Part shown: one piece after another, positions 48,395 through 51,670 of the stretch
How the letters are laid out: the number at the start of each line of letters is the position of its first letter
How positions within the stretch are numbered: the stretch's first letter is position 1
NCBI RefSeq assembly: GCF_017310505.1
Contig: NZ_CP065957.1
Location: forward strand, 1,736,001-1,800,000
Direction: 5' to 3'
DNA length: 64,000 bases
DNA from: Methylacidiphilum caldifontis
Lineage (GTDB): Bacteria > Verrucomicrobiota > Verrucomicrobiia > Methylacidiphilales > Methylacidiphilaceae
The notes under the pieces: generated by a model
Seen by the model: only the letters and a program-made list of their open reading frames with translations
Told to the model about the DNA's origin: nothing
Database searches by the model: none
Translations under genes and position numbers: made by a program

Positions 48395-49009
48395 ATGGAA
48401 AAAGCCATCCCTGAAGTCGGAGCACGCTCGCCTACTGATCAGGAGCTTATCCTGAGGATGAAATCTGGAGAATTAGAAGCTTTTGATGTTTTAGTCGAGC
48501 GATATCAAAAAAGATTGTACAGAGTTATTTATGGAGTTTTGCTCCACCATGAAGATACCAGTGATGTCTTAATGGAGACTTTTCTCAAGGCATATAAAAA
48601 TATCGGTAGTTTTCGTATAGGTGCTTCTTTTTACACATGGATTTATCGGATAGCGATAAATACGGCTATTAGTTTTAAAAGGAAAACGAAATTTTCACCC
48701 CAACCCTTTCCTTATTTTCCCGATGACGAAGAAGGACAGTTAGAAAAAGAGTTTGTTGATTATCGCTCTGGAGAACAAGCTGTAAGGCAAATGGAAATAA
48801 AAGAGTTGGGTAAAATTTTAAATGACGCTTTATCCAAGCTTTCTGAAAAGCATAGGGCCGTAGTTGTTCTGTTTGATCTTGAGGAACTAAGTCATTCAGA
48901 AATTGCAAAAATTATGGGTTGTTCAGAAGGAACTATTCGCTCTAGGTTGTTTTATGCCCATAAACAACTACAAAAGATTTTGAAAAAAGATAATAACTTT
49001 ATAACTTAA
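48395..49009 (+). CDS. ECF-type RNA polymerase sigma factor
   Basis: This 204-residue sigma70-family protein has regions 2 and 4 only, i.e. an extracytoplasmic-function sigma. Region 2 spans about residues 22-100 (FDVLVERYQKRLYRVIYG, then AYKNIGSFRIGASFYTWIYR). Region 4 spans about 140-195 (LSEKHRAVVVLFDLEELSHS, then EIAKIMGCSEGTIRSRLFYA). It is the first of four genes that include a membrane protein, an HtrA-like pseudoprotease and an OmpA-like protein. These suggest control of an envelope response. Confidence 0.92.
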   Translation: MEKAIPEVGARSPTDQELILRMKSGELEAFDVLVERYQKRLYRVIYGVLLHHEDTSDVLMETFLKAYKNIGSFRIGASFYTWIYRIAINTAISFKRKTKFSPQPFPYFPDDEEGQLEKEFVDYRSGEQAVRQMEIKELGKILNDALSKLSEKHRAVVVLFDLEELSHSEIAKIMGCSEGTIRSRLFYAHKQLQKILKKDNNFIT

Positions 49010-49053: not shown

Positions 49054-49587
49054 ATGGAGATGAAAAGTCAGGACAGTGTGGAGATGGAACTGCTAAAAAA
49101 AAGAATAAAAGAACATTTGGAACAGAATGTGGAAAAATATGTTTCAGCTGATTATTTCGAACATCTGCATAAAAGCCTTCATCGTCGACTCAGAGTAGAG
49201 ATGATTAAAAACAAGACCTTTTTAGAAATAGTTTTTGAGAAAATGCAAGGGTTATTTGATTCCGAAAGAATGGTCGTGTTTCGAGTAGTTTTTGCAGGAA
49301 TTTTTCTTTTTGTTAGTTTTTTAACTATCATGGATATAGGGTTTTCAAATCGATCTTCCAATCTCTCTTCTTCTCTAAGTACAAAATATTTGCTAACTAC
49401 TCATAGGAGTGAGGAACCTAAACAACCTTCACAAACTCTTTCTCCTTCTTCTCCGTCTTTAGTGCCTCCAAAACAGTCCTTAGAAGTTGAATCGACTAAA
49501 CTTTCCCCGGGTTTATCCGATTCTCAGGATCCTCAATCATTTATTCATGACAGCCTTACTCACTATGAAGCGATGGTGGCTTTTTAA
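49054..49587 (+). CDS. Putative membrane anti-sigma factor
   Basis: This 177-residue protein has a cytoplasmic helical N-terminus (residues 1-72, Lys/Glu-rich, with HLHKSLHRRLR), one membrane segment near 76-96 (VVFRVVFAGIFLFVSFLTIM) and a Ser/Pro/Thr-rich extracytoplasmic tail. I do not recognise the family. Its position 44 nt after an ECF sigma gene and its topology are those of an anti-sigma factor. It lacks the HxxxCxxC zinc motif. The 3' end overlaps the next gene by 23 nt. Confidence 0.55.
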   Translation: MEMKSQDSVEMELLKKRIKEHLEQNVEKYVSADYFEHLHKSLHRRLRVEMIKNKTFLEIVFEKMQGLFDSERMVVFRVVFAGIFLFVSFLTIMDIGFSNRSSNLSSSLSTKYLLTTHRSEEPKQPSQTLSPSSPSLVPPKQSLEVESTKLSPGLSDSQDPQSFIHDSLTHYEAMVAF

Positions 49588-50683
49588 GATTTTGTCCTTT
49601 AAGTTATCTTTGCTTTTTTTTTTCTTTTTAACATTAAGGGTTCCGGTTGTTTTAGGTTCTGAGAGCCTTTTCGATACAATTGGAAAAGAAGTCAATAGGA
49701 TTTTTGAAAATAACAAATCGGCGGTGGTTCGTGTCCGTGTCGAGAAAAGAGGGGGAGCAAAGATTTATTGTTCAGGATTTTTCATAGATTCTCAAGGGAC
49801 ATTGATTACGGCTTCTGGCGGTGGTGGTCAGGCCAGCGATGCTCTTTTCTATGTGGATTATCAAAACCAATGGCATTTGGCCAGAACGCTAGGTGTTGAT
49901 GAACGCAGTGGAGTAGCTGTTCTTCAGTTAATGGATGGGCAAAAACCTTTCCCCTATCTTAAACTGGCTAAAAATATTGATATTTCTACGGGTACGCCAA
50001 TTGTGGGTATCGGTTTTCCTTATAATCTTCCCTCCTCTCCTTCTTTTGGCTTGATTGTAGGCAAAGAATGTGAATATTTGAACCATTTTTTCCCAACCAC
50101 TCATTTGAGGGTCAACACAAGAATTAATCCTGGTCAGATTGGAGGCCCACTCATTAATTCAAAAGGTCTGGTTATTGGAATGATTTCTCTAAGTGTAAAA
50201 GATGAGGAATGGAGTTATGCCCTTCCAAGCAATGCGATTAAGAAGGTCGTTGATGATATCAATCATTTTGGAAAGGTGAGATATGGGTGGGTCGGAGTAG
50301 CCGTCACGAAACTGGGCAGAGAAGATACAGAGGGTAAGGTGGTTGTGGCTCGACTTTTCCCCAATACACCTGTTACAGGAAGTGGTTTACGTGAAGGAGA
50401 TGTGGTCGTTTCGATTAATGGTAAGAAAATAGAGAACCTGTCGGATGTGATGGATGCATCGTTTTTCGTTTCCGTGGGTCAAAGAATTCCCGTAAGGGTG
50501 ATTAGGGATGGCAAGCCTTTGCTTTTCGAATTTTTAGTTGGAGAAAGACCAATTGATACCCCTTCAGGTTCCACCATATTACCAAACAGTCCAGAGGAGT
50601 TGAAAAAAACATGGACAAATACTCTGCCTGTAAGCACAGCTCCTTTATCCTCTCCTATTGAAAAAACAACGAGTTCTCATTGA
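49565..50683 (+). CDS. HtrA/DegP-like pseudoprotease with PDZ domain
   Basis: This 372-residue protein has a signal peptide (residues 1-31), a trypsin-like HtrA domain (about 35-230) and one PDZ domain (about 245-345, GLREGDVVVSINGKKIENLS). All three catalytic positions are replaced. The His of TNNHVV is Gly85 in ITASGGGG, the Asp of TDLAVL is Gly116 in RSGVAVL, and the Ser of GNSGGPL is Ile192 in PGQIGGPL. Spacing between these sites matches DegP. It should bind peptides but not cut them. The start at 49565 gives a proper signal peptide; a frame back to 49487 is longer but poor. It probably forms an envelope sensor with the upstream sigma and membrane genes. Confidence 0.85.
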   Translation: MKRWWLFKILSFKLSLLFFFFLTLRVPVVLGSESLFDTIGKEVNRIFENNKSAVVRVRVEKRGGAKIYCSGFFIDSQGTLITASGGGGQASDALFYVDYQNQWHLARTLGVDERSGVAVLQLMDGQKPFPYLKLAKNIDISTGTPIVGIGFPYNLPSSPSFGLIVGKECEYLNHFFPTTHLRVNTRINPGQIGGPLINSKGLVIGMISLSVKDEEWSYALPSNAIKKVVDDINHFGKVRYGWVGVAVTKLGREDTEGKVVVARLFPNTPVTGSGLREGDVVVSINGKKIENLSDVMDASFFVSVGQRIPVRVIRDGKPLLFEFLVGERPIDTPSGSTILPNSPEELKKTWTNTLPVSTAPLSSPIEKTTSSH

Positions 50684-50740: not shown

Positions 50741-51670
50741 ATGGATCAAAAACCATCAATTGTTTCAGTTAAAGTACAGAGGAAAAAACAATCGGTATTT
50801 CCAGCAGGAGGGATTGGCGCGGTTTTTTTCTGGGTATCTTTAAGTGTTTTTTTGGGTGCAACTGCCATATATTTTTATGGTCAATATATTTCTTTAGAAA
50901 AGACCGTAAGAGTGCTTAAGGAGGAAGATGAGCTTTTAAAACAAGAAAATAACAAGCAAAGAGCCGTCGTCGATCAACTTCAAGCCGAGCTGGCTCAAAC
51001 GGGTAGTTTATTAAGGAGCCAGGAAGAGCTTCTTGAGAAAACAACCCAGTCTCTTAAAGCTGTTGAATCAAAAAAAGGAGAGGAAGAGGCGGTTTCTGCT
51101 AAAGAAAACTTTTCAATTATAAACGAAATCGCTCAGAAATTAAAAATGACTTTTGCAGAACAAATTCAGCAGGGAGAGTCTTTTATTATAGAACAGCCGA
51201 AAAGTATAATCGTGCGATTCAATAAAAGTATACTCTTTGGTTATGGGGGTGTTAAAATTAGCAATATAGGTAGAACTCTTCTTAAAAAATTGATAACCGA
51301 TATCAAACCTTTCTTGGATCATTCAAAAGACTTGCGAATCGAAGTTTGTTCATATACGGATAATGATCCACCTGCCCTAGAAGTCCAGAATTTTTATCCT
51401 ACGAACTGGGAAATATCAGCCATTCGATCCGCCGCAGTGATTAGAACACTTATCCAATTAAGTCAACTTCCCGAAGATATTTTTTCGCTTGCTGCTGGGG
51501 GTGAAACCAAACCCATAGCGGATAACAATGTTCCGGAGGGGAAAGAAAAAAATAGAAGGGTAGAAATTATTATTTACCCTGAAATAAGACATTCAGATTT
51601 TAAAGCCACAGTCAAGCCCACTTCTTTAGAAAAAGAAAATCCAGCCAAACTTCAGGGTAGTGGAGAATAA
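50741..51670 (+). CDS. OmpA/MotB-like protein with membrane anchor and coiled coil
   Basis: This 309-residue protein has an N-terminal membrane segment (about residues 26-48), a coiled coil at about 50-110 (KTVRVLKEEDELLKQENNKQ) and a C-terminal OmpA-like peptidoglycan-binding domain (about 165-285). The domain carries IEVCSYTDNDPP, NWEISAIRSAAVIRTLI and the closing KNRRVEIII. It is anchored in the inner membrane and would reach the cell wall, like MotB, but no motA or flagellar gene is nearby. It follows the HtrA-like gene by 57 nt. Confidence 0.82.
   Translation: MDQKPSIVSVKVQRKKQSVFPAGGIGAVFFWVSLSVFLGATAIYFYGQYISLEKTVRVLKEEDELLKQENNKQRAVVDQLQAELAQTGSLLRSQEELLEKTTQSLKAVESKKGEEEAVSAKENFSIINEIAQKLKMTFAEQIQQGESFIIEQPKSIIVRFNKSILFGYGGVKISNIGRTLLKKLITDIKPFLDHSKDLRIEVCSYTDNDPPALEVQNFYPTNWEISAIRSAAVIRTLIQLSQLPEDIFSLAAGGETKPIADNNVPEGKEKNRRVEIIIYPEIRHSDFKATVKPTSLEKENPAKLQGSGE

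Follow-up and report, generated by a model that had tools for sequence, protein, structure and literature searches.

The window analysed here is a 64,000-nucleotide stretch of DNA from Methylacidiphilum caldifontis, whose genome is assembled as one 2.25-Mb contig, and it carries a three-gene operon on the forward strand, the strand of every feature given below. The first gene (48395-49009) encodes an ECF (RpoE-like) sigma factor with sigma-70 regions 2 and 4, as seen from matches above cut-off to PF04542 (Sigma70_r2), PF08281 (Sigma70_r4_2) and TIGR02937; the best named models, PRK11922 and RpoE_Sigma70, scored below their own cut-offs. The second gene (49054-49587) encodes a putative class I anti-sigma factor. 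The third (49565-50683), which overlaps the second by 23 bases, encodes an HtrA-like protein that we describe as catalytically dead on the basis of its open reading frame, domain matches, alignment and an AlphaFold2 model. The operon is followed by a gene for an OmpA-family membrane protein (50741-51670; Pfam OmpA, E 7.6e-10), which adjoins it in Methylacidiphilaceae only (L104-L110) and is absent from this place in the other families examined. The source genome also encodes RseP and two intact HtrAs. When the sequence ahead of the sigma gene was searched for an ECF promoter motif, GAACTT was found in 16 of 98 as compared to 5 in mononucleotide shuffles, and other patterns occurred near chance.

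The third open reading frame is genuine and rightly placed, and its product of 372 amino acids opens with a signal peptide or anchor, after which come a trypsin-like domain and a single PDZ domain; this is the domain order of the HtrA/Deg (S1C) fold. It matches Trypsin_2 (E 1.5e-15), PDZ_2 (E 1.4e-11) and the Do-family endopeptidase model TIGR02037 (E 1.5e-39), the last with 136 bits, far below the cut-off of 416 bits. All Pfam and NCBIfam matches were to trypsin/HtrA and PDZ-containing families; no MucB_RseB domain was found among them, and the MamO equivalog NF040961 scored 29 bits against a cut-off of 800. By alignment to the chains of solved structures, the nearest relatives of the protein are HtrAs of the DegP, DegQ, AlgW and DegS types. 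The AlphaFold2 model, built as a single chain with 17 orthologues, is confident for the greater part of the core, and its structural alignment with DegP, DegQ, AlgW and DegS gave Z scores of about 27-31 (DegP, 30.7; AlgW, 29.5; peptide-bound DegS, 29.1). An earlier note, made from the sequence alone, had described the fold and PDZ domain of DegP/DegS as intact, and the domain searches, the alignment to structure chains and the model all agree with that description.

The PDZ domain also has the carboxylate-binding loop of the DegS/AlgW type, G241-W-V-G-V245 (50285-50299). Within the dead family, W242 is present in 103 of 110 members and G244 in 109 of 110, and the loop is retained while the catalytic columns drift. 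Five other conserved residues, F176, R182, D231, D294 and F300, are specific to the family, being absent or less common in intact HtrAs; the stretches that hold them (176-182, 231 and 294-301) may form a new binding surface.

The columns of the catalytic triad were set by alignment to DegP-type structure chains and to the intact paralogues of the same genome. They place Gly85 (codon 49817-49819) at the catalytic His position, Gly116 (codon 49910-49912) at the Asp position and Ile192 (codon 50138-50140) at the Ser position, where GQIGGP stands for GNSGGP. Two extra Gly in the His region (ITASGGGG) mean that the true His column may lie one or two residues away, but no His lies nearby. The three replacements named in the earlier note are thus reproduced by both sets of alignments, and realignment placed no intact His, Asp and Ser elsewhere. 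The protein lacks the His-Asp-Ser triad of HtrA/Deg (S1C) proteases, a loss common to its orthologues, and it therefore has none of the catalytic residues with which a DegS/AlgW-type site-1 protease cuts an anti-sigma factor. We rejected alternative catalytic residues elsewhere in the protein, as the family has no conserved substitute set: H180, present in 86 of 108 members, has no accompanying Ser or Cys nucleophile, and S115, present in 82 of 108, adjoins the lost Asp.

An HtrA match was found in 60 of 60 genomes in the sample of relatives, and the best match was an orthologue in nearly all of them; named matches to the family profile belong to Methylacidiphilum, Methylacidimicrobium and other Verrucomicrobiota. 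The triad is absent from every aligned orthologue at the level of the order, and most sampled families of the class Verrucomicrobiae have orthologues that keep the fold without it. Among 126 aligned HtrAs, 104 have none of the three residues, 6 have the Ser only and 16 have all three. Since the intact HtrAs fall on one side of a single branch (support 100/100), with the 104 rows lacking all three residues and the 6 retaining Ser alone making up the 110 on the other, one loss of the triad at the base of the dead family is the simplest reading of the tree. Members with His and Asp gone and Ser left are L088, L089, L082, L093, L094 and L060. The HtrA matches checked outside the class are intact, save for one genome (G179) that carries the whole dead module; one outside-class row (L278, G278-type) has Glu in the Asp column and retains His and Ser.

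Within the dead family the His position varies freely, Asp is replaced by Gly, Asn or Ser, and Ser is replaced by Ile, Val, Leu, Gly or Ala. The earlier note had asked whether orthologues keep the same substitutions; the loss of the triad is indeed common to them, but the exact residues G/G/I are not conserved. Values of dN/dS within the genus are about 0.06-0.11, which indicates that the gene is under purifying selection; dS has reached or nearly reached saturation in every pair except one, for which dN/dS is 0.11. Chance or sequencing error is excluded because the loss is common to orthologues. A one-off mutation or a pseudogene was rejected on the same ground together with the low dN/dS, and we did not find this copy to be an exception among orthologues with a normal triad. 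Selection for a non-proteolytic role, as the note had supposed, is supported by the fold and PDZ loop being kept without the triad and by this range of dN/dS.

In nearly all readable loci, the operon has the same order of ECF sigma factor, short single-TM protein and dead HtrA. Of the 110 dead or Ser-only loci, 101 have an orthologous ECF sigma gene upstream in the same orientation, as compared to none of the 16 intact ones, although these counts come from related genomes and hence are not independent. The exceptions are mostly contig ends; one is caused by masked sequence, in which the end of the sigma gene and an F-ended tail are still visible, and one is real (G033). It is at this last locus (L118) that a dead HtrA has no recognisable sigma gene in about 3.6 kb upstream, the only clear break in the linkage.

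The protein of the middle gene is predicted to have N-terminal helices, one TM segment (49273-49329, from residue 74; Kyte-Doolittle maximum of 2.47 over 19 residues) and a disordered periplasmic tail. AlphaFold2 predicted helices followed by disorder with low confidence, a fold search with this low-confidence model gave no usable match, and a Pfam search with the protein gave no match. Middle proteins usually have 135-230 amino acids with one hydrophobic segment; their identity across the class is very low, and a cytoplasmic motif, LLxLKRxExPxxxYFxxFLxxFHRRxR, recurs among them. The zinc-binding anti-sigma domain zf-HC2 (PF13490) was detected in proteins at the same position in families f14 and f10; among same-position relatives, five reach or exceed the cut-off and a sixth falls just short of it. 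The zf-HC2 domain of these relatives and the place of the gene in the operon make it very likely that the middle gene encodes an anti-sigma factor. For the protein in the window the assignment is putative and rests on position and relatives rather than on a domain match, with the single TM segment and the AlphaFold2 prediction in keeping with it.

The predicted anti-sigma factor ends in YEAMVAF-COOH (49564-49584), a tail that resembles both the end of an OMP and a PDZ ligand. Of 100 distinct middle proteins, 90 terminate in F, 9 in Y and 1 in L. Position -3 is usually one of L, V, I, F or M, and Y occupies position -7 in 66 of 100; the tails follow the pattern Y-D/E-x-x-hydrophobic-x-F-COOH. 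When the proteins were clustered at less than 50% identity, 48 of 49 clusters ended in F or Y versus 9.7% of 647 long open reading frames, among which some of the tails are themselves counted. The corresponding binomial value, 1e-47, assumes independent clusters and serves only as an indication. A YVxD-like element upstream of the tail end was found in 28 of 49 versus 7.5 in shuffles, with a pattern that was written after seeing the tails. The C-termini of the sigma factors and HtrAs of the same operons have no aromatic-end bias. BamA-type proteins of the source genome and its relatives end in GYSF, GYQF or similar, and the anti-sigma tail therefore resembles an OMP end in the same organisms. 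We rejected the idea that the aromatic end merely results from the overlap of the two genes, because it is also present where about 40-115 bases separate the middle gene from the estimated start of the HtrA gene, and because it is mostly lost where no dead HtrA adjoins.

Five families (f34, f15, f19, f29 and f30) have an orthologous sigma/anti-sigma pair with no dead HtrA adjoining, and 10 of their 11 tails are non-aromatic (R, Q, P or H), the remaining one ending in Y. In Akkermansia-like genomes of family f11 (L226, L254-L256), the HtrA-like third gene is further degraded: its PDZ loop is lost and replaced by RVRLGCL, and the anti-sigma tail ends in VLIEM. A family mate of these genomes (G152) has a divergent dead HtrA with the loop RGWIGL and a tail ending in QEF. 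The exception is family f20 (L221-L225, L251 and L253), where anti-sigma factors of 268-297 amino acids end in SIKF or similar and are followed by unrelated genes, with no dead HtrA at the locus. As f20 keeps the F end without a linked dead HtrA, the F-ended tail is not read by the dead HtrA alone. In a search for a dead HtrA elsewhere in genomes without a linked one, all HtrAs checked in three f34 and several f20 genomes were intact. After removal of near-copies, 68 tails are aromatic and 1 is not in the presence of a dead HtrA, versus 8 and 9 in its absence (Fisher p 5e-7, uncorrected for relatedness). A tree-aware test gave 3 independent pairs on supported branches, of which a mean of 1.7 changed in the same way and none in the opposite way; the median p was 0.5, three pairs being too few for significance. 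The joint loss of tail and receptor is partial.

With the operon context and the anti-sigma tail, the "peptide sensing or scaffolding" proposed in the earlier note becomes a specific hypothesis. The dead HtrA is probably a non-proteolytic periplasmic PDZ receptor in an ECF sigma/anti-sigma envelope-stress module, shielding the OMP-like tail. Its PDZ domain would bind the Y-D/E-x-x-hydrophobic-x-F-COOH tail of the anti-sigma factor, and the bound tail would be shielded as RseA is by RseB. Unassembled OMPs, which likewise terminate in F, would compete with it for the PDZ domain and free the tail for a site-1 protease, possibly an intact HtrA paralogue; after this cut RseP would act and the sigma factor would be freed. 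We infer the binding, the OMP competition, the protective direction and the later proteolysis from the comparisons described above. With a receptor that has lost the means to cut and an anti-sigma factor that bears an OMP-like end of its own, the most economical view is that the dead HtrA holds the tail and that OMP ends compete. We propose more tentatively, as a real possibility, that this forms a class-wide switch in Verrucomicrobiae, in which OMP C-termini compete with an OMP-mimicking anti-sigma tail for a dead DegS-like receptor.

The tail could instead be a ligand or degron of an intact PDZ protease, such as a DegP-like HtrA or Prc, with the dead HtrA not binding the tail itself but acting on that protease as a scaffold or allosteric partner, perhaps within mixed trimers. 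MamO, another dead HtrA, non-catalytically activates the intact MamE (PMC4794232), the source genome holds intact paralogues, and in f20 the tail still ends in F where the only HtrAs found are intact. However, the five families without a dead HtrA have lost the aromatic end even though the f34 genomes checked retain intact HtrAs, and the dead family retains a conserved PDZ loop, so that we consider this explanation rather unlikely. It is unlikely, too, that the dead HtrA is an activator whose OMP-loaded PDZ domain contacts the anti-sigma factor and loosens its grip on the sigma factor, in the manner of DegS but without cutting. The retained fold and PDZ domain would suit such a role, as would the closest solved relatives, among which are OMP-peptide complexes of DegS and MucE-peptide complexes of AlgW, but the OMP-like C-terminus found in 99 of 100 anti-sigma proteins would be left unexplained.

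HtrA proteins such as DegP have an established chaperone activity, and stress operons often carry chaperones; a protein with the HtrA fold, as demonstrated by structural alignment, might thus be a general periplasmic chaperone that merely lies in the operon of its controlling sigma factor. We find this very improbable, given that strict linkage is a class-wide property of the dead form alone, with none in 16 intact loci, and that losses are shared with the anti-sigma tail.

DegS and AlgW are the site-1 HtrAs of the sigmaE/RseA and AlgU/MucA pathways. The dead HtrA resembles them in its HtrA fold, its single PDZ domain of the type that reads OMP C-termini, its predicted periplasmic location and its link to an RpoE-like ECF sigma factor and a single-TM anti-sigma factor, but it has lost all three catalytic residues and sits in the sigma operon. 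By means of the PDZ domain, DegS and AlgW recognise C-termini of the YxF or WVF type, and this activates them to cut the anti-sigma factor (PMC8545111), whereas here the OMP-like C-terminus belongs to the anti-sigma factor itself. RseB and MucB shield the anti-sigma factors RseA and MucA (PMC7593790), and a similar shielding of the periplasmic anti-sigma part, until a signal displaces it, is proposed here for the product of a third sigma-operon gene, although the folds are unrelated (HtrA with PDZ here, not MucB_RseB). The mycobacterial sigE-rseA-htrA locus has the same gene order of sigma factor, anti-sigma factor and HtrA, but its HtrA is active, being described as an essential serine protease, and its RseA is under phosphorylation and redox control (PMC10027907), in contrast to the dead form described here. 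Dead HtrAs are known in magnetotactic bacteria, where MamO likewise combines a non-catalytic HtrA fold with remaining intact paralogues; MamO, however, keeps His and Asp with Thr for Ser, and has di-histidine metal binding, a TauE-like domain and no sigma operon (PMC4794232).

We did not find the module described in the openly accessible literature searched on dead HtrAs, on ECF/anti-sigma/HtrA in Verrucomicrobia, on Akkermansia and on PDZ/anti-sigma, and text searches of this literature found no description of a sigmaE-type pathway in Verrucomicrobiae. Our results suggest an envelope-stress switch whose sensing relies on binding rather than on cleavage. To the dead HtrAs of magnetosomes they add a further clade, one that is large and old. 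If the proposed mechanism is true, a PDZ domain can sense OMP C-termini ahead of an ECF sigma factor in a receptor that is no protease, and a non-protease version of the best-known envelope-stress logic would span a major bacterial class.
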